Assembly: GCA_021413975.1 (NCBI GenBank)
Contig: JAIOPJ010000054.1
Span: forward strand, 62,001-126,000
Origin: Gemmatimonadota bacterium
Lineage (GTDB): Bacteria; Gemmatimonadota; Gemmatimonadetes; Gemmatimonadales; Gemmatimonadaceae
Length of the DNA stretch: 64,000 bases
Direction: 5' to 3'
Shown: positions 9,014 through 44,506 of the stretch, one piece after another
Layout of the letters: each line of letters starts with the position of its first letter
How positions within the stretch are numbered: the first letter of the stretch is position 1
Notes under the pieces: model-generated
Seen by the model: the letters and a program-made list of their open reading frames with translations, nothing else
What the model was told of the DNA's origin: nothing
Databases searched by the model: none
Program-made: the position numbers and the translations under genes

Positions 9014-10086
9014 TCCCTGCGGTGCCCTCCGCCGCCGACGATCCGGCCTCCGCGGAGGCGACGCCGGCGCGTGGGTGGATCTGGGTCCAGTTGGCGATCG
9101 GGTGGCTGCCGGTCTGGGCGCTCTATTCGTCGATGATCCTCTCGATGCATGGCGGACCCGCCCGGCCGGCGATGCTGATCGCGGCGCGCGCGATCGGCGT
9201 GGCGGCGGTGCTCGGTGTACTCGTGCTGCGGTGGACCGAGCGGTGGCCCTGGCCGCGTCACCTGAGCGCCGGCTTCGTCACGGGGCACGTCGTGGGGGCG
9301 TCGATGTTCGCGGCATCGTGGATGATGACCACGAATCTCTTCGAAGGCGCGTTGAACGGGCGGCTGAGGTTCACGAGTCCGGCGGGGGTGGTCCCGTTCC
9401 TCGTGATCGGGGTCTGGCTCTATCTCGCGGTCGCCGGCGTCTCGTACGCGGCCAGGGCCACCGCCCGAGCCGCTCGCGCCGAGACGACGGCGGCGCGGTC
9501 GCAACTCGCGGCCCTTCGCGGGCAACTCAACCCGCACTTCCTGTTCAATGCCCTGCACACCGTCGTGCAGCTGATCCCAGTGGAGCCGGCGCGCGCGAGC
9601 GACGCGGCCGAACAGCTCGCGGCGCTGTTGCGCACGGCGTCCGACGAGTATCGCGACCTCGTCCCGTTCCGGGACGAGCGCGCCTTCGTGGAGCGCTATC
9701 TCGCGCTCGAGGCCCTGCGCTTCGGTGACCGGCTGCGTTGGCGCCTCGAGGTGGATCCGCGCGCGGAGGAGGCGGTGGTGCCCTCGTTCGTGTTGCAGAC
9801 CCTGGTGGAGAACGCGGTGCGCCACGGGGCCGCGCCGCGCGAGGAGCCGACGACGCTCGCGCTGACCGCGCGGATCGAGGGGGCGGAGTTGCTGATCGAG
9901 GTCTCGGATAACGGCGCCGGCGCCGAACCGGGCGCGGTGGAGAGGGGTGGCACCGGTCTGCGCCGGCTCAGGGAGCGGCTGGCCGCGCTCTATGGTGACC
10001 GCGCCGCGCTCACGGCCAACGGCGGTCCGGCGCGCGGGTTCACCGCGACGGTGCGCCTGCCCTTCGATCCCGGGTCGGACGGGTGA
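9010..10086 (+). CDS. LytS/YehU-type sensor histidine kinase
   Basis: A 358-residue membrane kinase. Four hydrophobic segments fill residues 15-150, with no obvious periplasmic sensor domain. The His_kinase region follows with the phospho-acceptor His176 in LNPHFLFNALH. The C-terminal ATPase has LVENAVRHG (N box) and SDNGAG, GGTGLRRLRERL (G boxes). The GTG start overlaps the preceding stop. It pairs with the LytTR regulator immediately downstream and presumably phosphorylates its Asp67. The signal is unknown; short multi-spanning sensors of this type usually detect membrane or envelope state, or act with a partner protein. Confidence 0.92.
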   Translation: MIPAVPSAADDPASAEATPARGWIWVQLAIGWLPVWALYSSMILSMHGGPARPAMLIAARAIGVAAVLGVLVLRWTERWPWPRHLSAGFVTGHVVGASMFAASWMMTTNLFEGALNGRLRFTSPAGVVPFLVIGVWLYLAVAGVSYAARATARAARAETTAARSQLAALRGQLNPHFLFNALHTVVQLIPVEPARASDAAEQLAALLRTASDEYRDLVPFRDERAFVERYLALEALRFGDRLRWRLEVDPRAEEAVVPSFVLQTLVENAVRHGAAPREEPTTLALTARIEGAELLIEVSDNGAGAEPGAVERGGTGLRRLRERLAALYGDRAALTANGGPARGFTATVRLPFDPGSDG

Positions 10087-32739: not shown

Positions 32740-32985
32740 TCAGCGCTTGGAGCGCACCAGCGCGGTGATGAGGTCGAGCGTGTTGAGGTTGTCGACGCTC
32801 GCCTCGTGCGCTTCCACCTGGATCCCGAAGCGCTCCTCGAGGAACGAGACCAGGCGCATGGTCGCGAGCGAGTCGAGGATGGCGCTCGTGACCAGCGGCG
32901 TGGTCGGCTCGAGTGCCGCCGGATCCTCGCCGGGCAGGAACTGAGCGAGGATGAAGTCCTTCACGATCCGTTGCGTGTCTTCCAT
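32740..32985 (-). CDS. Peptidyl/acyl carrier protein (PltL/CloN5-like)
   Basis: An 81-residue carrier protein. The phosphopantetheine attachment site is Ser39 in SAILDSLATMRLV, followed by SFLEERFGIQVEAHE and a last helix VDNLNTLDLITALV. The shape matches stand-alone carriers that hold L-proline during pyrrole formation and also D-alanyl carriers; context decides. It is last of four minus-strand genes, 28 bases after the MBOAT-SGNH gene. The frame is open further upstream, but the ATG at 32985 gives a normal carrier length. It would be charged by the ligase at 36900-38447, oxidised by the dehydrogenase and serve as acyl donor to the MBOAT, which is inference. Confidence 0.88.
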   Translation of the reverse strand: MEDTQRIVKDFILAQFLPGEDPAALEPTTPLVTSAILDSLATMRLVSFLEERFGIQVEAHEASVDNLNTLDLITALVRSKR

Positions 32986-33013
32986 CGTCGGTCTCGGCGT
33001 GCGTGCGTGGAGG

Positions 33014-35755
33014 TCAGTGGCCGGGCGCCGGCGGCGCACGGTGGGACATGATGGCCGGATCGGCCCGGAGCGCGCGCTCGAGGGCGTCGGCGATCAGCCG
33101 GTGCCCCTTGGTGTTGGGATGATAGTCGAAGCGGGTCAGTTGCAGCGATGCCAGGTCCACGCCCCGGTACGCGTCGGAGAGGTCGATCACCGCGAAGCCG
33201 GCGCGCCGCGCGAGCGCCGCCAGCGACGGGACCTCCTGGGATGGCTCGCGGTCGGGCGTCGGGACGAACACCCACACCGGCAGCGCGCCGCGCGCGCGCA
33301 CCTGCGCCGCGAACCGCGCGTACATCCACTCGAGCAGTTCGCGCTTGTGCTCCTCGAGGCGCTTGCGCACGAGCGGCTCCGGCGCGCTCCCGAGGCCGGC
33401 GGTCCGCGCCGCACTCGCCAGCGAGTCGAGCGGCACTGCCACCCCCTCCCGCGCGCGATCGAGGATGCGGTTCACGGATTCGCGCGCGTCGATCTCATGC
33501 GCCGCGAGGAGGACGACGTCGGGCGAGAAGTCCAGCACCCGGTCGAGGATGAGCAGTTGCTGGGGCACCGTGAAGGCGCCGATGGAGAAGTTGAGGACCT
33601 CCACGCCGCCGCCACCGGGTGCCCGCCGGGCTTCGCGATCGAGGCTCGTCTCCAGCAGTGACTCGAACGCCTCCCCGTCGCCGACCCCCCATCCCATCTC
33701 CACCGACGCGCCCATGAGCGCGTACCGGCGTGTTCCCTCCGGTCGCACCTGCTCGTAGTCGCGGTCGCGCATGCCCCATCGATTGACCGTCAGGATCGAG
33801 CCGAGGAAGTTGATCTTGGCACCCGGCACGAGCTCGACCTTCCGGAAATCGCCGGTGAGGTGCGCGGCCGTCGTCTCCTCGAGCCTGGGCCACGCCGCCG
33901 CCGGTGGGCGGCGCATGTAGACCTCCCAGAGCTGCGAGTTGAACCGGCTCACGCCCATGAGGTCCTCGTAGTAGCCGCGCTGCAACTGCGTCACGTCGCG
34001 CGCGTTGAGCTGCGAACTCCGCAACGACGCGACCACGCGCGCCGTCGGATCCCCCATGACCGCACCGACCTTCGGGAGGGCCAGGAGGAGCACGCCGCCC
34101 ATGAGCAGCGTCGTCGCCGTCGCGCCGCGCGTGAAGACGGTCGGGTCCTTGGCCCCGCGCAGTCCGCCGGAGCTGCCCGAGAGGGGAAGGAGCACGGCCG
34201 CCGTGAGGAGCACCCCGAGCGAGAGCACCGGCAGCCCGCCCATCGTGGTGCTCGGTGCCCATCCGCTGACCGACCAGAGCGCGAGCCAGTCCCCGAAGGT
34301 CGGACTCATCCAGAGGGACCAGAGCAGGCAGATGGCGATGAAGGTCCCCACCGTCGCGAACGAGCGCGCGGCGAACGCCTTCGCGTCGAAGCCCTTCGCG
34401 GTGAGGGTGCGGGCGCGACCGAGGCGCGCCTCTCGCAGCGAGTTGAACACCAGCAGCACCGCGAGCGTGCCCCAGAAGAGGGTATCGGTGGCGGTGACCG
34501 GGAACGAGCCGAGCAGCCAGAACCACTGGTACGAATGCAGCGCCCACGTCATGACGAACACCGCGAGGGTGGCCACCACCATCGCCGTCCGCTCTCCGTA
34601 TCGCTTCAACCGGAAGTGCAGGGGATAGTAGAAGACCTTCGTCATGAAGTCCTTCCAATAGATGTTGATGCGGCGCCAGAAGTCGGTGAAGCTCGACGCG
34701 AAGAAGGGGCGGCGATGCGTCTCCGGCAGGTGGAACCCGAACAGGTGCAACGAACCGATGATCAGGTGGAACTGCCCCGAGACGCGCACGTAGAGCAGGA
34801 AGTTCGCCACGAGGAAGCGCGCCAGGTCCGACCAGGACCGCACGTCCCCCTGCGCGATCATCAGGTACTGGTAGACGAGCCGGTAGAGGATGAGCTGCAG
34901 CGTGCCGCGGAACATCCATTCCACGCCGCGCTGCAGGATGCGGTGCGCCTCGGTGTCGTAGTAGGTCCGCCGGAAGGCCGCGAAGTCGACGACCGGGAAG
35001 AGCGGGAACGCGACGTTCGGGAGCAGGAAGAAGTAGGCGAGGCGCGCGGTCCACGAGGCGGGGACCTTCAGGTTCCGCAGATCGTAGAGGTAGACGATCG
35101 TCCGGAACATGAACATCGAGCCGAGGATCGGCCACACGGCGCGCGACCAGGGGACCGGCAGCAGGTCGACGCGGGCCGCGGCGAGTGCCACGCCCAGGCC
35201 GCCGACCACCGCGACGCGCAGGCCGAACGGGATCGGGAGATGACAGGCGGCGACGATCGTGACGCCGAGCGTGATGAGCCAGGGCGCGTCCGGGTACCCG
35301 AACACGAGCCAGATCGCGGTGAACGAGAGCAGCAGGAAGTAACCGAGTCGGTGCGGCCGCGGCACCAGCGCGTGCAGCGCAGCGCCACCGATGAGCAGCG
35401 GCGCGATGAGGGTCCAGAAGGAGGGATTCTCGATCTCGTAGACGCGGATCAACAGATAGAGCAGCGCGAATTCGAGACCGAGCGTCCCGAGCCGCACGAC
35501 GGTCGCGCGTCGCACGTCAGCGGGCGCATCCCACCACGCGGCCACGGACGCCCATGCCCCCTCGTCACGCAGTGCGGCGCCGCGCAGCACGAGTGCGATG
35601 CCGGCGAGCAGGATCGCCAGTTCGTAGAGCCCCGGTGACGCGTCCGCCCCCGCGATGCCCAGCGCGCCGAGCACGAGGCGGCCGGTGAAGGCGAGGATCG
35701 CCAGTGTCCCCGCACCCTGAAGGCCGCCGGCGACGTACCTCTGGCGCGCGCTCAC
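33014..35755 (-). CDS. MBOAT acyltransferase fused to SGNH/AlgJ-DltD-like domain
   Basis: A 913-residue protein. Residues ~10-540 are hydrophobic with a dozen or more helices and MBOAT landmarks: SFTDFWRRINIYWKDFMTKVFYYPLHFRLKR and the active-site His407 in WALHSYQWFW. Residues ~590-913 form a periplasmic SGNH domain: block I Ser684 in YALMGASVEMG, LLAAHEIDAR in the middle, and block V Asp877/His879 in FDYHPNTKGH. In alginate and D-alanine systems these two activities are separate proteins (AlgI with AlgJ/X, DltB with DltD); here they are one chain. The GTG start overlaps the stop of the dehydrogenase gene (GTGA). It probably moves an acyl group from the carrier protein across the membrane to an envelope or exported acceptor. 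Confidence 0.87.
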   Translation of the reverse strand: MSARQRYVAGGLQGAGTLAILAFTGRLVLGALGIAGADASPGLYELAILLAGIALVLRGAALRDEGAWASVAAWWDAPADVRRATVVRLGTLGLEFALLYLLIRVYEIENPSFWTLIAPLLIGGAALHALVPRPHRLGYFLLLSFTAIWLVFGYPDAPWLITLGVTIVAACHLPIPFGLRVAVVGGLGVALAAARVDLLPVPWSRAVWPILGSMFMFRTIVYLYDLRNLKVPASWTARLAYFFLLPNVAFPLFPVVDFAAFRRTYYDTEAHRILQRGVEWMFRGTLQLILYRLVYQYLMIAQGDVRSWSDLARFLVANFLLYVRVSGQFHLIIGSLHLFGFHLPETHRRPFFASSFTDFWRRINIYWKDFMTKVFYYPLHFRLKRYGERTAMVVATLAVFVMTWALHSYQWFWLLGSFPVTATDTLFWGTLAVLLVFNSLREARLGRARTLTAKGFDAKAFAARSFATVGTFIAICLLWSLWMSPTFGDWLALWSVSGWAPSTTMGGLPVLSLGVLLTAAVLLPLSGSSGGLRGAKDPTVFTRGATATTLLMGGVLLLALPKVGAVMGDPTARVVASLRSSQLNARDVTQLQRGYYEDLMGVSRFNSQLWEVYMRRPPAAAWPRLEETTAAHLTGDFRKVELVPGAKINFLGSILTVNRWGMRDRDYEQVRPEGTRRYALMGASVEMGWGVGDGEAFESLLETSLDREARRAPGGGGVEVLNFSIGAFTVPQQLLILDRVLDFSPDVVLLAAHEIDARESVNRILDRAREGVAVPLDSLASAARTAGLGSAPEPLVRKRLEEHKRELLEWMYARFAAQVRARGALPVWVFVPTPDREPSQEVPSLAALARRAGFAVIDLSDAYRGVDLASLQLTRFDYHPNTKGHRLIADALERALRADPAIMSHRAPPAPGH

Positions 35756-36900
35756 AACCCCGACCACCGTGCGATGATGTTGCGTTGCATCTCGTTGGTG
35801 CCGGAGTAGAGCGTGCTTCCGAGGGCATCGCGGACGGCGCGCTCCACCTCGAAGTCGGTCATGTAGCCGTAGCCCCCGTGGATCTGCAGCACGTCGAGCG
35901 CGGTCTTCACGAGCGTCTCGCTCACGAAGAGCTTCGCCATCGCGGCGTCGAGGGAGACGGAGCGCGACGTCTCGAGCCGGGACGCCGCCCGGTAGGTGAG
36001 GAGGCGTGCGGCCTCGAGCTGCACCTTCAGGTCCGCGATCTTGTGCGAGACCGCCTGGAACTTCCCGATCGGCTGGCTGAACTGCTGGCGGGTGCGCGCG
36101 TACTCCACCGCCGTCTCCAGCAGCCGCTCGATCGTCCCGACGTGCGCGGCGAAGAGGAGCGTGCGCTCCCAGTCCATCGCCTGCGTGAACATCGCGGCGC
36201 CGCCCCCGACGCCGCCCACGGCGGCGCTCGCCGGCACCCAGACGTCCTCGAAGACGAGCTCGCCGAGCGGGGAGGTCCGCAGGCCCATCTTCTCGAGCGC
36301 CTTGGGCGTGTGGAAGCCGGGCGTCCCCTTCTCGACGATGAAGGGTGTGGTGCCTCCGTGGAATCCCTTCGCCTTGTCGGTCATGGTGAAGACGATCACG
36401 ACGTCGGCGACGGGTCCGTTCGAGATGAAGGTCTTGGTCCCGTTGATCCGGAACCCGTCCCCGTCGGGCACGGCCCGCGTCGAGAGGTTGAAGGCGTCCG
36501 ATCCGGAGCCGGGTTCGGTCATCGCGTGGACGCCGATCAGCGTGCCGTCGCAGAGCCCGGGGAGGTACTTCCGCTTCTGCTCCTCGGAGCCATGCTTCCA
36601 GATCGGCACCACGCACGACAGCAGATGCGCGCAGATCGAGAAGGTGAGGCCGCCGTCCCGGCACCCGTGCCCGAGCGCCTCGAGCGCGATCGCCGAGGTG
36701 AGCGGGTCGAGCCCGGTCCCGCCGTACTCCTCGGGCACCGGAAGTCCGCAGAGCCCCATCTTCGCGCACTCCACCCAGAGATCACGGCGGAACGACTGCG
36801 TGCGATCACGCTCGACGAGTCCCTCGTTGAGCACCTCCCGGGCGAAGCGGGAGACATCGTCCCGCAGCTGCCGCTGCTCGCTGGTGAACGTGAAATCCAC
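35752..36900 (-). CDS. Prolyl-carrier-protein dehydrogenase-like flavoenzyme (PltE/RedW/CloN3 type)
   Basis: A 382-residue acyl-CoA-dehydrogenase-fold flavoprotein. FAD and substrate motifs are MTEPGSGSDAFNL (residues 127-139) and RQQFSQPIG. The catalytic base is probably Glu245 in MDWERTLLFAA, the isovaleryl-CoA-dehydrogenase position. The MCAD-type base is missing: YEGT reads YSGT at 365-368. That arrangement, and the phrases GLTFSICAHLLSCVVPI and FQAVSHKIADLK, match what I remember of PltE-type enzymes that oxidise L-prolyl-carrier to pyrrole-2-carboxyl-carrier in two steps. The GTG start overlaps the ligase stop by one base. A plain short-chain acyl-CoA dehydrogenase is the alternative, but the neighbours argue against it. 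Confidence 0.83.
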   Translation of the reverse strand: MDFTFTSEQRQLRDDVSRFAREVLNEGLVERDRTQSFRRDLWVECAKMGLCGLPVPEEYGGTGLDPLTSAIALEALGHGCRDGGLTFSICAHLLSCVVPIWKHGSEEQKRKYLPGLCDGTLIGVHAMTEPGSGSDAFNLSTRAVPDGDGFRINGTKTFISNGPVADVVIVFTMTDKAKGFHGGTTPFIVEKGTPGFHTPKALEKMGLRTSPLGELVFEDVWVPASAAVGGVGGGAAMFTQAMDWERTLLFAAHVGTIERLLETAVEYARTRQQFSQPIGKFQAVSHKIADLKVQLEAARLLTYRAASRLETSRSVSLDAAMAKLFVSETLVKTALDVLQIHGGYGYMTDFEVERAVRDALGSTLYSGTNEMQRNIIARWSGL

Positions 36901-38447
36901 TAGGCCATCTCCTGGATGCGCTGGTAGTCCGTCTTGTCGGTGGAGGTGCGCGGCAACGCCGGTACGAACAGGAACTGGTCGGGCACCATGTAGAGCGGCA
37001 CCCGTTCGGCGCAGTGCCGCTTGAGCGCGATCAGCGAGATCCGCCCGCCGTCCCGTGACGCGATCACGGCGGTGATGCGCACCCCGTCCTCGGTCGCGCT
37101 CGCGACCACCGCGGCCTCCGCGACCGCGGGATGCGTGAGCACGCACGCCTCGACCTCGCCGAGCTCGACCCGGTAGCCGCGCTTCTTCACCATCCGGTCG
37201 CGCCGTCCCCGGAAGGTGAAGGTGCCGTCCGGAGCTTCGACGACCAGATCGCCGGTTCGGTACCAGCGCCGACCGTCGGGGCCGCTGACGAAGGCGCGCG
37301 CGGACTGCTCCTCGAGCCCCCAGTAGCCGACCATCACGTTCGGACCGCTGATGAGCAACTCGCCTTCCTCGCCGCGCGCGGTGTCACCCAGGTCGGGCGC
37401 GACGACACGGGCCATGAGGTTCTCGCAGGTGCGACCGATCGGGTAGGGATCCGTGCGCTCCTCGGGGATGTCGGGCGGGATCTCGTGATACGTGCAGACG
37501 TTGGTCTCGGTCGGTCCGTAGAGATTGAAGTAGCGGGGATGCGGCAGGCGTCGCTGCAGCGCCCGCAGGTGCTTCACCGGGAAGACCTCGCCGGCGAAGA
37601 GCACGAGGCGCAGCGACGGGAACGCGAGCGGGGCCGGCGCACCGTGCGCCGCGAGGAGGGTGAGGATCGACGGGGCCGAGTACCAGACGGTCAGGGCGTG
37701 TGCGGCGACGAGCTCCGCGATCCGCGCGGGATCCTTCCCGACCTCGTGACTGACGAGCACGAGCGTCGAGCCGCGAGTGAGCGGGAGGAAGAGGTCGAGG
37801 ATCGAGAGGTCGAAGTGGAACGGGGCGTGGGAGCTGAACCGGTCGGCGGGCGTCGGGGCGAAGACCCCGGCGCACCAGCCGACGAAGCTCAGCGCGTTGC
37901 CATGCGTGAGCATCACGCCCTTGGGACGTCCGGTCGAGCCCGACGTGTAGAGCACGTAGGCGAGGTCGTCGGCCCCGCGGGCGACGGGCGCCGGCGCCGG
38001 CCCATCTCGCCCCGGCATGTTCGACACGCCACCGCCATCGCGCCCGAGCTCCACCAGTTCCAGCGGGATGTCGGCGCCGATCGTCGCCAGTTCCGGCGCG
38101 AGCAGGGGCTGCAGCGTTCGCTCGACGATGGCGAGCGCCACGCCGCAATCGTGCATGATGAACGCATTGCGGGGAACCGGACCGTGCGGGTCCACGGGGA
38201 TATAGACCGCCCCCGCGCGCAACACACCGAGGATCGCCGCGATGCCCTCGATGGACTTCTGCACGTGGATCGCGACGCGATCGCCGGGACGCACGCCGCG
38301 GAGCGCGAGCAGGCCGTGGATGCGCGTGGCGAGGGCCTCCAGTTCACCGAAAGTGACCGAACCCCGATCGGGATCGACCACGGCGATGGCGCCGGGCTGT
38401 CGCGCGGCGGCCACAGCGAAAGCGGTGAACAGGTCGGCGGTCGGCAC
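36900..38447 (-). CDS. Stand-alone proline-type adenylation ligase (PltF/RedM/CloN4-like)
   Basis: A 515-residue acyl-adenylating enzyme. Core motifs: YVLYTSGSTGRPKGVML (165-180), HFDLSILDLF (211-220), FNLYGPTETNVC (307-318), WYRTGD (395-400) and catalytic Lys505. Aligning by hand to the PheA specificity positions gives D213 L214 L217 Y256 L283 A285 L309 V317 C318 K505, that is DLLYLALVCK, the code I recall for L-proline ligases feeding pyrrole formation. The enzyme would make prolyl-AMP and load the carrier at 32740. The GTG at 38447 gives the family length; the frame is open to 38729, but upstream translation is not family-like. First gene of the four-gene operon. Confidence 0.85.
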   Translation of the reverse strand: MPTADLFTAFAVAAARQPGAIAVVDPDRGSVTFGELEALATRIHGLLALRGVRPGDRVAIHVQKSIEGIAAILGVLRAGAVYIPVDPHGPVPRNAFIMHDCGVALAIVERTLQPLLAPELATIGADIPLELVELGRDGGGVSNMPGRDGPAPAPVARGADDLAYVLYTSGSTGRPKGVMLTHGNALSFVGWCAGVFAPTPADRFSSHAPFHFDLSILDLFLPLTRGSTLVLVSHEVGKDPARIAELVAAHALTVWYSAPSILTLLAAHGAPAPLAFPSLRLVLFAGEVFPVKHLRALQRRLPHPRYFNLYGPTETNVCTYHEIPPDIPEERTDPYPIGRTCENLMARVVAPDLGDTARGEEGELLISGPNVMVGYWGLEEQSARAFVSGPDGRRWYRTGDLVVEAPDGTFTFRGRRDRMVKKRGYRVELGEVEACVLTHPAVAEAAVVASATEDGVRITAVIASRDGGRISLIALKRHCAERVPLYMVPDQFLFVPALPRTSTDKTDYQRIQEMA

Positions 38448-40332: not shown

Positions 40333-42156
40333 TCAGCGCGCGGGCAGCACCGGCAGCACAAGCCGCGACGGGTGCGCCGCATCATGCCGGATGGTGATCC
40401 ACGCCGGCGCGAGCGCCGCACTCGTCCGTTCCGACTCCCCTGTCTGCGGATTGAGCGAGAAGTGCGGCTGGAACGCGCCCATGATGTGCACGCGCAGTCG
40501 ATGGCCCGCGAGGAACCGGTTCGCGGTGAGGAGATCCCCCAGCCGCAACGAGTAGGTGCGACCCGGTTCCAGCAACTGCCGTCCGCGCGCCGGCTCGCGA
40601 TACGATGCCCGCAGCACCTCGAGTCCCGGTGACATGAGGTTGTAGGCGGTCCCGTCGGGCGCGACGTCGAGCACCTTCACGTACACATCCACGTCGCGCG
40701 CATCGGTCTCGAGCTGCAACTCGGCCGTCATCGCGCCGATCACCTCGACCGCCTGCGTGAACGGCGCCGTCTCGAACGTGAGCAGGTCGCTCCGTGCGGC
40801 GAGCGCGCGGAAGTCGTGGGCCCCGTACGCGGCGTCGTAGGGATCGCGCACCGGGTCGCGCGGGTCGGAGACGAAGTTGCTCGCGGCGGCACCACCCGCG
40901 CGGCCGTTGGCCGGCAGCGCTGCGGGAGCGGTCCGCTCGAGCCGTCCGCCGGCGGCGAACCAGAGTGTCTCGGCGACGATCCCCGGCAGTGGCCAGCGAT
41001 CGGCGGTGCGCCACTCGTTCGCGCCCATCACGAAGACCCGCACCGCGGGATCGCGCTCGACGCCGTTCGCCTCGCCCTTGAGCCAGTGGTCCATCCAGCG
41101 CAGCACGACCTCGTCGTAGTCGATCCGCGCCGCGGCCCCGAACTCGCGCTGTCCACTCCGCGTGCGCGCCGTCGCCGTCACGCCATGCACCCAGGGCCCG
41201 ATCAGCATCGCCGTGCGCGCCGACGGTCCGCCGCGGCGTGACTCGACGAGTCCCATGAAGTTGTTCGTCGCGCCATGCGGTCCGTACGCCTCGTCGTGCC
41301 ACCCGGAGAGGTTGAGCACCGCGGCCGTCGTTCGCGTGTATCGGCCCGAGAGTTCGGCGAAGTCCCACCACGCATCGGTCGGCTCGCGGCGCATCCACTC
41401 GTAGAACCAGGGGGCGACGCCCTTGAAGTCCGGGAGTTCCAGCAACGGCCGCTGCGCGAGCACACGCGCGGACTCGCGCTCCCACGTCGCGCGCGCCTCG
41501 CGCTCGGTGCGCGGGCCCGGCGCATTCAGGCGCACCCGGAGGTCGGGCGCGATGTTGTCCCACACCCAGCCGGCCCAGCTGAGGTCCCAGGCGCCGCCCG
41601 AATAGAAGAACTGCCGCGGACTCGCGAAGGTCATCGCCGGCACCATCGCCTTGAGGTGCGGCGGTGATTCCATCGCCGCCAGCCACTGCACCGCGCCGGG
41701 ATACGAGAGCCCGAACGTCCCCACGGCACCGGTGGACCAGGGCTGTGCGGCGGCCCACTCGATCGTGTCGTAGCCGTCCGGCCCTTCCTGACGGTAGGCC
41801 TCGAAGGTGCCCGCCGAGCGATAGCGGCCGCGCACGTCCTGGACCACGACCGCGTACCCGCGCGCGACCGCATGCTGCACCGTCGTGTAGTCGCGTGCGG
41901 CCTCGTCCTTCCCGTATGGCGTGCGGTAGACCAGCACCGGGAACGGCCCGCGACCGCGGGGCCGGTGGACGTCGGCCCGCAGGACGGTGCCATCGCGCAT
42001 CGGGACGGCGACGTCCTTCTCCACGATCCAAGTGGTGTCCGTCCCGGCCTTCGGCACGGCCGCCGCGCCCGACCGGGGTGCGGGCGCACCCGACTGCGGC
42101 GGGGCCGCGACCGCGACCACGAGCGAGGTGACGAGAGCGAGTGCGGCGACGAGCAT
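40333..42156 (-). CDS. Secreted CocE/NonD-family (S15) hydrolase
   Basis: A 607-residue alpha/beta hydrolase with a signal peptide (LVAALALVTSLVVAVA). The X-Pro dipeptidyl-peptidase/cocaine-esterase N-terminal domain has VAVPMRDGTVLRADVHRP, the oxyanion-region TPYGKDE, and the nucleophile Ser151 in FGLSYPGAVQ. The C-terminal jelly-roll domain includes RFLAGHRLRVHIMG near the end. The family cleaves amide or ester bonds of acyl-amino acids, beta-lactams or X-Pro peptides. Together with the divergent PSMA-like peptidase at 42284 it may degrade peptides in the periplasm. No clear ribosome binding site precedes the ATG. Confidence 0.88.
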   Translation of the reverse strand: MLVAALALVTSLVVAVAAPPQSGAPAPRSGAAAVPKAGTDTTWIVEKDVAVPMRDGTVLRADVHRPRGRGPFPVLVYRTPYGKDEAARDYTTVQHAVARGYAVVVQDVRGRYRSAGTFEAYRQEGPDGYDTIEWAAAQPWSTGAVGTFGLSYPGAVQWLAAMESPPHLKAMVPAMTFASPRQFFYSGGAWDLSWAGWVWDNIAPDLRVRLNAPGPRTEREARATWERESARVLAQRPLLELPDFKGVAPWFYEWMRREPTDAWWDFAELSGRYTRTTAAVLNLSGWHDEAYGPHGATNNFMGLVESRRGGPSARTAMLIGPWVHGVTATARTRSGQREFGAAARIDYDEVVLRWMDHWLKGEANGVERDPAVRVFVMGANEWRTADRWPLPGIVAETLWFAAGGRLERTAPAALPANGRAGGAAASNFVSDPRDPVRDPYDAAYGAHDFRALAARSDLLTFETAPFTQAVEVIGAMTAELQLETDARDVDVYVKVLDVAPDGTAYNLMSPGLEVLRASYREPARGRQLLEPGRTYSLRLGDLLTANRFLAGHRLRVHIMGAFQPHFSLNPQTGESERTSAALAPAWITIRHDAAHPSRLVLPVLPAR

Positions 42157-42283
42157 GTGGCGCGCGATAGGAGAGTGACGGGCGGACGGCGCCGCCCTGA
42201 TGCATCTTCTCTGGCTGGAACATGGCACTCGGCGCGCCCTTCCGCCCGTGTGTCGCGTCGATCCCCCGCACACCGGCCCGCCC

Positions 42284-44506
42284 ATGCGTCGCAGCGCCCT
42301 GCTCCTCATCCCGCTCTCCCTCGTGCTCGTGGCCGCTGCGGTCGCGCGGCCGGTCGCACGCGCCGTCGCGCTCCCCGGCGCGCCACTCAGTGCGACCCAG
42401 GCCGGGGATCCCATGCGCGGATACTCCATGTCGACCGCCGCGCGCGAGCGATCGCTCGAGTCCGCGCTCGCGGGCCGCCTGAGCCGCGACTCGGTGCGCG
42501 CCTTCTTCCGGCACTTCACGGCCGAGCCGCATCCGGCGGGCTCGGTGCGCAACAAGGCGCTCGCCGACTTCATCGCCGAGCGCTTCCGCGCCTACGGGCT
42601 CGACGACGTGCGTCTCCATCGCTACGACGTGCTGTTGCCGCTGCCGCGCGAAGTGCGCGTCTCGATGGTCTCGCCGACGCGCTACGACGCGACGCTGACG
42701 GAGGACGCCTACCCCGAGGATCCGCAGACCAGGCAGGACGCGGGCCCCACCTTCCTCGGCATGTCCGCGTCTGGCGACGTGACCGCCGAACTCGTCTACG
42801 CCTCGAGCGGGAATCCGTCCGACTACGACTGGCTCGAGTCGCAGGGGATCGATCTCAAGGGGAAGATCGCGATCGTCCGCTACTCGGTGCCCTACAGCTA
42901 CCGCGGATTCAAGGCGCTCACGGCGGAGAAGCGCGGGCTCAAGGCGCTGCTCATCTACTCAGACCCGGCGCAGGACGGCTTCACCAAGGGCAAGACCTTC
43001 CCCGACGGTCCGTGGGGTCCGGCCAGCCACATCCAGCGTGGCGCGCTCTCGTACGACTTCATGTATGCCGGCGATCCGCTCACGCCGGGCTACGCGTCGC
43101 TGCCGGGGGCTCCGCGCATCCCGGAGAGCGAGTCGGTGCAGATCCCGCGCATCATCGCCGTGCCCCTGTCGTACCGCGACGCCGAGCCACTGCTCCGCGC
43201 CTTGGGCGGTCCTGAGGCACCGGCCGAGTGGCAGGGGGCGTTGCCGTTCAGGTATCACGTGGGCTCAGGCCCCGCGACCGTGCGCGTGAAGGTGGACATG
43301 GATGGCGCGACGCGCCCCATCTGGGTCGTCGAGGGCCGCATCCGCGGCACCGAGGAGCCCGACAAGTACGTCGTCCTCGGCAATCATCGCGACGCCTGGG
43401 CGTTCGGCGCCGTCGATCCCTCGTCGGGCACGGCGACGCAGCTCGAGCTCGCGCGTGTGCTCGGGGGCCTCGCGCGCGAGGGCAAGCGCCCCAAGCGGTC
43501 GATCGTCTTCGCGAGCTGGGACGCAGAGGAATGGCACCTCACCGGCTCGACCGAATGGGGGGAGCAGTTCGCCGACGACCTGCGGAAGAACGCCATCGCC
43601 TACCTCAACGTCGACGGGTCGACGAGCGGGAGCACCTTCGACGCCGGCGCGATCGCGTCCCTGAATGCCCTCGTCACCGAGACCGTACGCGACGTCCGCG
43701 ATCCCGGGGCGGAAGGCTCGGTGCTCGACTCGTGGGGCCGCTCGCTCGCCGGTGCAACGCGTGAAGCGATGATCGGCGGCGGCGGGACGCGCGGGACCAC
43801 GACGCGCCGGCCGATCGACTATCCGGGCAATGCGCTCGGGTCGGGATCCGACTACACGGTCTTCCTGAACTTCCTCGGCCTCCCGGTCGTGGAGATGAGC
43901 TTCAACGGGCCGTACGGCGTCTATCACTCGATCTACGACAACGCCTATTGGATGGAGCACTTCGGCGACCCGGGCTACCGCTACATGACGGCGATGGGCG
44001 AGGTGTGGGGCCGGATGGCGCTGCGCCTCGCGAACGCGGAACACTATCCGCACGACTTCACGCTCTACGCCGATCGCGTCGGCGGGTTCGTCGATGCGCT
44101 CGAGTCACAGCCGGCCGCCGCGGCCGAGCTCGACCTCGCGGCGGTCCGCGCGGCGCAGGCGCGCTGGCGGGTGGCCGCGGTGGAACTCGAGGCGGTGCTC
44201 TCGCGTCGCCTCGCCTCGCCCGACGGCGACGCCCGTCGCGCCGCGCTCGCGCGCACCAACGAGGCGATGCGCGCAGTCGAACAGGCCTTCCTCGCCACGT
44301 CAGGCATCCCGGGGAGGCCCTGGTTCAAGCATGTGCTCTACGCGCCCAAGTACACCTACGCGGCGATGACGCTCCCGGGGGTCCAGGAGGCGATCGATGC
44401 CTCCGACTGGCCGCGCGCGCGGGCACAACTCGCGGTGATCACGGCGCGGCTCGACGCTGTTGCCGCCGCGACGCGCGCCGCGACCGTGGCCGGCGGCACG
44501 CGCTGA
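42284..44506 (+). CDS. Glutamate carboxypeptidase II-like (PSMA/TfR group) M28 metallopeptidase
   Basis: A 740-residue exported peptidase (signal LLLIPLSLVLVAAAVA). The order is the PSMA layout: a PA domain inserted near residues 150-330 (GKIAIVRYSVPYSYRGFKA), catalytic zinc domain with GNHRDAWAFGAVDPSSG, the general base region WDAEEWHLTGSTEW, YLNVDGS, GSGSDYTVF and the last ligand region YHSIYD, then a helical dimerisation domain. It removes C-terminal Glu or similar residues from peptides outside the cytoplasm. Divergent from the S15 hydrolase; the 127 bases between hold the promoters but no clear element. Confidence 0.92.
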   Translation: MRRSALLLIPLSLVLVAAAVARPVARAVALPGAPLSATQAGDPMRGYSMSTAARERSLESALAGRLSRDSVRAFFRHFTAEPHPAGSVRNKALADFIAERFRAYGLDDVRLHRYDVLLPLPREVRVSMVSPTRYDATLTEDAYPEDPQTRQDAGPTFLGMSASGDVTAELVYASSGNPSDYDWLESQGIDLKGKIAIVRYSVPYSYRGFKALTAEKRGLKALLIYSDPAQDGFTKGKTFPDGPWGPASHIQRGALSYDFMYAGDPLTPGYASLPGAPRIPESESVQIPRIIAVPLSYRDAEPLLRALGGPEAPAEWQGALPFRYHVGSGPATVRVKVDMDGATRPIWVVEGRIRGTEEPDKYVVLGNHRDAWAFGAVDPSSGTATQLELARVLGGLAREGKRPKRSIVFASWDAEEWHLTGSTEWGEQFADDLRKNAIAYLNVDGSTSGSTFDAGAIASLNALVTETVRDVRDPGAEGSVLDSWGRSLAGATREAMIGGGGTRGTTTRRPIDYPGNALGSGSDYTVFLNFLGLPVVEMSFNGPYGVYHSIYDNAYWMEHFGDPGYRYMTAMGEVWGRMALRLANAEHYPHDFTLYADRVGGFVDALESQPAAAAELDLAAVRAAQARWRVAAVELEAVLSRRLASPDGDARRAALARTNEAMRAVEQAFLATSGIPGRPWFKHVLYAPKYTYAAMTLPGVQEAIDASDWPRARAQLAVITARLDAVAAATRAATVAGGTR

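Follow-up and report, generated by a model that had tools for sequence, protein, structure and literature searches.

Proline-to-pyrrole genes beside a fused MBOAT-SGNH acyltransferase in a Gemmatimonadota bacterium: a candidate Dlt-like relay for pyrrole-2-carboxyl groups

Teichoic acids are D-alanylated by the Dlt system (DltA, DltC, DltB, DltX and DltD), which combines an amino-acid ligase, a discrete carrier, a membrane acyltransferase of the MBOAT family, an SGNH protein and a shuttle tyrosine. The envelope acetylation systems PatA/PatB and AlgI/AlgJ-AlgX have an MBOAT catalytic histidine, an SGNH triad and a tyrosine that follows the last membrane helix; their donor is acyl-CoA, and their SGNH proteins are separate. 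In the available text of PMC12148441, all known MBOAT/SGNH systems consist of separate proteins, and a carrier takes part in Dlt alone. Carrier-bound pyrrole is made from proline in thiotemplated pathways by triads of ligase, dehydrogenase and discrete carrier (PltF/PltE/PltL, PigI/PigA/PigG and Bmp). Here we describe a locus with features of both kinds of system in a 64,000-nucleotide stretch of contig JAIOPJ010000054.1 from a Gemmatimonadota bacterium (the window, by which we mean this whole stretch). Four genes on the minus strand (38447-32740) encode, in this order, a proline-type adenylation ligase, a prolyl-carrier dehydrogenase, a fused MBOAT-SGNH membrane acyltransferase and a carrier protein. 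We consider it likely that they form a Dlt-like relay by which an acceptor outside the cytoplasm receives pyrrole-2-carboxyl groups.

All four genes are open, as expected from the initial annotation of this DNA, which had described them as contiguous, with starts and stops that overlap or nearly touch. The stop of the ligase gene (36900-38447, 515 aa, GTG start) and the start of the dehydrogenase gene (35752-36900, 382 aa) have one base in common, judged from their coordinates; the dehydrogenase gene overlaps the MBOAT-SGNH gene (33014-35755, 913 aa) by GTGA, and 28 bases separate the latter from the carrier gene (32740-32985, 81 aa), given a carrier start at ATG 32985, which is the most likely start rather than the upstream GTG 33039. 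The functional assignments made in that annotation, namely a proline-type ligase, a prolyl-carrier dehydrogenase-like flavoenzyme, an MBOAT-SGNH fusion of DltB/AlgI type and a carrier protein, are all borne out by the pocket, lineage, fold and conserved residues described below. It had further stated that no polyketide synthase (PKS) or nonribosomal peptide synthetase (NRPS) follows the triad, and indeed none was recognised beside the operon. In the source genome (3.08 Mb, estimated 92.7% complete), a search with the ligase returned the gene itself at 1159 bits and nothing else above 115 bits, and an NRPS or PKS as consumer of the pyrrole was therefore rejected. The annotation was made without knowledge of any described system of this form, in agreement with the open-access PMC literature, in which we found no such description (subscription papers lay outside the scope of this search).

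The ligase, DltA-like in role, matches the amino-acid adenylation family TIGR01733 with 374.6 bits (cut-off 317.4). The best PDB match of its pocket fragment was 6o6e_B (174 bits), an entry titled L-proline--[L-prolyl-carrier protein] ligase, which we take to be PltF. Nine pocket positions were mapped from the PheA code, with a numbering and mapping that we assume to be the appropriate ones; at these, the window ligase reads DLLYLALVC and equals PltF at every position. Within the family, 37 of 58 ligases are identical to PltF at all nine positions, and the other 21 differ at one or two. The string DLLYLALVC itself was not found in the open-access PMC literature. This pocket bears directly on whether the operon could perform ordinary Dlt-type D-alanylation with a broad-specificity dehydrogenase alongside, an idea that would accord with the DltB-like fold of the membrane domain and with the resemblance of the ligase to the DltA family. 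However, the ligase scored 243 bits against the DltA model TIGR01734, far below its cut-off of 559.85, and the pocket fragment matched DltA at 106 bits, compared with the 174 bits for 6o6e_B. Together with the PltF-identical pocket, this makes D-alanylation very improbable.

The carrier protein has an LDSL phosphopantetheine site, the serine of which is conserved in 72 of 72 family rows, an alignment in which at least two sequences are present twice. It matched PF00550 with 24.9 bits, and its best PDB match was the peptidyl carrier protein 2my5 (38.6 bits); no second carrier match was found in its own, 92.7% complete genome. The best named family was NCBIfam ACP_for_OlsHI (105 bits, cut-off 130), which is named for ornithine-lipid biosynthesis. 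An ornithine-lipid system was considered and rejected: in the available text of PMC12493201, OlsH is GH3-like and requires no acyl carrier protein, and OlsI is an alpha/beta-hydrolase; neither an OlsH-type nor an OlsI-type family was among the matches.

The nearest solved relatives of the dehydrogenase are 4irn (377 bits), 5zw0 (323 bits) and 6cxt (308 bits). The first two are titled prolyl-carrier dehydrogenases and are presumably AnaB and PigA, respectively. The third bears the title butyryl-CoA dehydrogenase and corresponds to Bmp3 in the available text of PMC10849742, where a conserved catalytic glutamate is reported as essential in AnaB and Bmp3. The position of this glutamate was set from 6af6, which has alanine where 5zw0 has glutamate. 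The residue is kept in the window dehydrogenase and in every one of the 46 family rows longer than 300 aa; its place is taken by G, A or F in six other acyl-CoA dehydrogenases encoded in the same genome. In a FastTree phylogeny, the family forms one clade with AnaB, PigA and Bmp3 (support 0.99), apart from those six. An ordinary acyl-CoA dehydrogenase was rejected, since the other own-genome matches reached at most 220 bits and the six that were aligned lack the glutamate.

It is conceivable that the same relay carries a prolyl or dehydroprolyl cargo, with the dehydrogenase catalysing a two-electron oxidation or none at all. The top-scoring solved relative, AnaB, is a two-electron oxidase that stops at dehydroproline, and the branching of AnaB, PigA and Bmp3 within the clade is weakly supported (0.10); the tree does not discriminate between two- and four-electron oxidation. 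Pyrrole-forming Bmp3 and PigA are also close, however, and a sister operon from the same phylum (L045) argues for full oxidation. Its genes are arranged as carrier, ligase, halogenase, dehydrogenase and MBOAT, and its dehydrogenase is 64% identical to that of the window. The L045 halogenase scored 559 bits against 5buk, 546 against 5dbj and 541 against 7fco, which we take to be Mpy16, PltA and ChlB4, respectively; the other 19 matches were at or below 176 bits. PltA chlorinates pyrrolyl thioesters, the substrates on which halogenases of this type act, and a PltA-type halogenase in the sister operon therefore points to pyrrole over dehydroproline. This is consistent with the thiotemplated pathways known so far, in which, according to the available text of PMC10849742, pyrrole is made before halogenation and similar steps. 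We regard a prolyl or dehydroprolyl cargo as unlikely and retain pyrrole-2-carboxyl as the preferred one.

Other relatives carry additional genes that would suit a pyrrole. In a Methylomonas locus (L066, 12808-16348), carrier and ligase are separated by a B12 radical SAM gene and by genes for the alpha and beta subunits of a Rieske oxygenase; CloN6, said to be a B12 radical SAM enzyme, reportedly methylates the pyrrole of clorobiocin. The halogenase, B12 radical SAM and Rieske genes of the sister operons are probable pyrrole-tailoring genes and lend the pyrrolyl reading support that was not available to the initial annotation. Halogenase-like genes of lower similarity occur in L036, L066, L084, L094, L107, L108 and L115, of which L107 shows no triad, and some of these genes may encode other flavoenzymes. 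Beside the halogenase-like genes by the operon in L036 (3764-7864) and L094 (2980-5604), which represent two phyla, there is a gene for a CPA2-type Na+/H+ exchanger, and L096 contains a related gene. The operon thus shares with the thiotemplated triads the ligase pocket, the dehydrogenase lineage with its catalytic glutamate and a discrete carrier, and some relatives have a halogenase, as there; in contrast to those triads, no NRPS or PKS is recognised alongside, and the acceptor side is a membrane acyltransferase.

A Pfam scan of this acyltransferase recognised a GDSL-type domain alone. PF03062 gave no match in the protein or elsewhere in its genome, and matched in 3 of 14 control genomes. 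An AlphaFold2 model built from 18 sequences (mean pLDDT 78.4) contains an MBOAT domain at residues about 106-496 and an SGNH domain at about 630-905. The best structural match of the model was DltB (8jem_B; Z 20.2, root-mean-square deviation 4.6 over 364 residues, model residues 110-496), and its C-terminal part corresponds to SGNH proteins, with CgnD at Z 19.2 over residues 617-897 and TesA at Z about 15; the VIA-align structure comparison was informative mainly for model residues 106-496 and 671-904. Profile-profile comparison with six proteins of the phylum that we regard as AlgI-like MBOATs gave an E-value of 4.4e-12 and aligned His407 with the WHG histidine of these six. When the MBOAT-SGNH alignment was used as a profile against the PDB, weak SGNH matches and chance matches were all that came back. 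Residues of both domains are kept almost throughout: in the MBOAT domain, the predicted catalytic His407 is present in 101 of 101 rows and His330 in 100, and in the SGNH triad Ser684 is present in 101, Asp877 in 99 and His879 in 100. These rows comprise the 18 sequences of our first alignment and 83 of the 88 matches of at least 700 aa from a wider scan (see below); eight genes are present twice, and the rows therefore represent about 93 genes.

The last hydrophobic segment of this protein (545-567 in the family average) and the SGNH domain are separated by a stretch with the motif RGYYExL, in which Gly594 and Tyr596 are present in all 101 rows, Glu597 in 100, and Tyr595 and Leu599 in 99 each. 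Tyr596 is invariant and lies past the last membrane helix and ahead of the SGNH domain, which makes it a candidate shuttle residue. In Dlt and PatA/PatB, the acyl-shuttle tyrosine belongs to an FXYXXF motif after the last membrane helix (available text of PMC12148441); the family motif GYYExL has glycine in place of the first phenylalanine, and Tyr596 stands at the expected place, in a poorly modelled loop. By analogy, Tyr596 may be the fused counterpart of the Dlt- and PatA-like shuttle tyrosine. Compared with Dlt, the operon has a proline-type ligase, an added dehydrogenase, an MBOAT domain that PF03062 does not reach, and an SGNH domain fused to it in place of a separate DltD. With the ligase below the DltA cut-off and no separate DltD in the operon, the system would therefore work like Dlt without being a member of it. 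With PatA/PatB and AlgI/AlgJ-AlgX it shares the MBOAT catalytic histidine and the SGNH triad, with Tyr596 as a candidate for their tyrosine; it differs from them in its fused domains and in a donor that is likely to be carrier-bound.

A mechanism is proposed in which the ligase would activate L-proline with ATP and load it onto the carrier, and the dehydrogenase would then oxidise the prolyl-S-carrier to pyrrole-2-carboxyl-S-carrier. The loaded carrier would dock at the cytoplasmic face of the MBOAT domain, where His407 would hand the acyl group to Tyr596 of the RGYYExL motif at the outer face. Finally, the SGNH domain would receive the acyl group on Ser684 and esterify a hydroxyl group of the acceptor, which would be extracytoplasmic and is probably a glycan or glycolipid. 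The predicted formation of the pyrrolyl-carrier in the first two steps is well supported by close homology and conserved residues; the transmembrane transfer of the last two we infer from the fold, the invariant residues and the analogy with Dlt and PatA/PatB. That the oxidation removes four electrons, that the MBOAT domain draws on the carrier and that the acceptor belongs to the envelope are likewise predictions. Transfer of a pyrrolyl (or dehydroprolyl) group to an envelope glycan, lipid or exported metabolite had been put forward in the initial annotation, and those parts of the proposal that can be tested on sequence (the proline pocket, the dehydrogenase lineage and glutamate, the carrier serine, the DltB fold, the SGNH triad and a gene set that is kept together) have stood.

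Conservation within the phylum was surveyed by a protein search of 395 Gemmatimonadota genomes. Thirteen other genomes gave strong MBOAT-SGNH matches (E <= 2.9e-57), at 19 places in total, of which two have an internal TGA; the next match was at 9.8e-12. With this threshold, and with E <= 1e-90 for a prolyl-type dehydrogenase, the MBOAT-SGNH gene is present in 14 genomes, the dehydrogenase in 21 and both in 11 (Fisher p 1.5e-13); the joint occurrence of the fused protein and the prolyl-type dehydrogenase is beyond chance. Ten genomes have the dehydrogenase and not this MBOAT. In six of the 18 phylum loci examined (L031-L046, L006 and L009), the complete four-gene set is present, in an order that differs between loci (L032, L033, L034, L043, L044 and L045); the carrier of L033 was found by tblastn in L004, the MBOAT gene of L044 is on the opposite strand and that of L045 is cut off by the contig end. 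L042 has a ligase, a carrier and two MBOAT genes, with a dehydrogenase on another contig of that genome, L036 and L006 are partial loci at contig ends, and L037 has a carrier and an MBOAT only; from the remaining eight loci, we recovered the MBOAT gene or part of it. In L037 (9365-15999), as in L097, the carrier and MBOAT-SGNH genes are followed by two sulfatase-family genes, and sulfatase-family genes also adjoin L032 and L036.

A wider scan of genome contigs yielded 255 stretches with an MBOAT-SGNH relative (E <= 1e-3), of which the best 80 were kept, corresponding to 78 loci, many of them short contigs. Carrier, ligase and dehydrogenase are all present in 41 of these best 78 loci, carrier and ligase in nine, carrier and dehydrogenase in two, and the carrier only in 11; 15 have none of them. 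When both flanks extend to at least 6 kb, 31 of 35 loci contain all three genes beside the MBOAT-SGNH gene, the exceptions being L054, where the ligase matches in pieces, L097, L109 and L119. Mesorhizobium contributes seven of these 35 loci and Microvirga four, all 11 being complete, and counting each of these two genera once gives 22 of 26. The initial annotation had proposed a search for conservation of the four-gene order; the gene set is kept, and the order varies.

The same counts argue against the idea that the triad makes free or separately used pyrrole, that the MBOAT-SGNH protein uses another donor, and that their adjacency is incidental. Some MBOAT homologues do stand without a nearby triad, or with a fatty-acyl-AMP-ligase-like gene, as an incidental arrangement would allow. 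Against this are the recurrence of all parts in the well-flanked loci in varied orders, the co-occurrence within the phylum and the lack of any other own-genome ligase match above 115 bits that could consume the pyrrole, and we consider incidental adjacency improbable.

The gene set is spread over the whole MBOAT tree, with hosts that include Burkholderiales, Thauera, Accumulibacter, Rhodoferax, Methylomonas, Paraglaciecola, Mesorhizobium and Microvirga, as well as Acidobacteria, Hydrogenedentota, Phycisphaerae, Rhodothermaceae and Calditrichia, among others; a plasmid collection contains one Microvirga replicon with an MBOAT-SGNH gene, which carries no annotation there. By our assignment, most of these hosts are Gram-negative groups, in contrast to Dlt. 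On balance we favour a widespread 'pyrrolyl-Dlt' system, in which a fused MBOAT-SGNH protein, supplied by a carrier, would attach pyrrole-2-carboxyl to glycans or glycolipids of the cell surface, in some lineages after halogenation, methylation or hydroxylation, and which would occur in Gemmatimonadota, Pseudomonadota, Acidobacteria, Planctomycetota, Hydrogenedentota, Rhodothermales and others.

Several observations weigh against a pyrrolyl relay, either in the window or across the family. In L109 (10001-14574) and L117 (10001-14625), the MBOAT-SGNH and carrier genes are followed by a fatty-acyl-AMP-ligase-like gene in place of the proline ligase, which is not in these stretches; L050 keeps the dehydrogenase and has another AMP-ligase-like protein after the carrier, and L037/L097 shows neither ligase nor dehydrogenase. 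The MBOAT family as a whole is therefore not tied to pyrrole, and in L109 and L117 the cargo of the same relay may be fatty acyl groups. Within the phylum, three of the 14 genomes with the MBOAT have no prolyl dehydrogenase match: G179 (87% complete), G354 (82%, with a dehydrogenase fragment at a contig end) and G102, the source of L037, which is estimated to be 100% complete and in which the carrier and MBOAT alone are in view. The window dehydrogenase scored under the cut-offs of NCBIfam PigA (438 bits, cut-off 500) and RedW (421 bits, cut-off 650) and is therefore a relative rather than a member of either equivalog, and its nearest solved relative is the dehydroproline-forming AnaB. Loop 592-620, which includes Tyr596, has low model confidence. 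No halogenase is present in the window operon, and none was found in its genome by a search made without a positive control. Finally, none of the window neighbours checked hints at an acceptor, and no polysaccharide gene is among them.

Polysaccharide genes do lie near some relatives, and a glycan or glycolipid is therefore the likeliest acceptor. In a Mesorhizobium locus (L070), a flippase-family gene, glycosyltransferases, a polysaccharide pyruvyl transferase and a bacterial sugar transferase are found within 10 kb, and in a Microvirga locus (L122) a GT2 gene directly follows the MBOAT gene and a GT1 gene lies beyond the dehydrogenase; a flippase-family gene is also near L042 and a GT1 gene near L108. 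A family survey of 109 nearby proteins from 31 hand-picked loci counted six GT1, two GT2, two pyruvyl transferase, five halogenase and three radical SAM matches. Four further matches were to AA_kinase (PF00696), the amino acid kinase family. In 8 of the 78 loci (L084, L115, L103, L119, L067, L069, L086 and L092) and in L042, there are two or three genes of the MBOAT-SGNH type, which would fit several acceptor positions; some of the eight have one donor-gene set and some have none in view.

The pyrrolyl group might instead be placed on a small exported lipid or metabolite, as a natural-product ester, rather than on an envelope polymer. No polysaccharide gene turned up among the examined neighbours of the Pseudothauera, Rhodoferax and Aromatoleum loci or of the window operon, and pyrrolyl sugar esters are found in clorobiocin and coumermycin. 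In these antibiotics, pyrrole-2-carboxyl is carried on a sugar hydroxyl, as is proposed here; the transfer there is a soluble step of an antibiotic pathway, as opposed to a membrane relay. The closeness of polysaccharide genes to the operon in Mesorhizobium, Microvirga, Calditrichia and L042 speaks against a small acceptor, as does the fact that, in the available text of PMC12148441, the MBOAT/SGNH pairs with known function modify envelope polymers. We think a small-molecule acceptor the less probable of the two; a surface glycan or glycolipid remains our preferred acceptor.

If correct, the proposed relay would join carrier-bound pyrrole chemistry, familiar from antibiotics and pigments, with transmembrane acylation of the cell surface, two fields hitherto apart, and would be a second carrier-dependent MBOAT system besides Dlt. 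Aromatic and possibly halogenated ester groups would then be predicted on soil, rhizosphere and wastewater bacteria such as Mesorhizobium, Microvirga, Thauera and Accumulibacter. Because the MBOAT and SGNH domains and a candidate shuttle tyrosine are all part of one chain, the protein could also be useful for understanding how acyl groups cross the membrane.

The genes that flank the window operon look unrelated to it: a Sortilin-Vps10 protein is encoded downstream, and upstream, on the plus strand, are a protein without a Pfam match and an M50 peptidase. Also in the window, 2 kb from this proline-using operon, is a gene of the X-Pro dipeptidyl-peptidase family with Peptidase_S15 and PepX_C domains (40333-42573), a nearness that is probably coincidence. 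In a Pseudothauera locus (L062), an acyl carrier protein phosphodiesterase gene (9061-9687) is located just upstream of the MBOAT gene.

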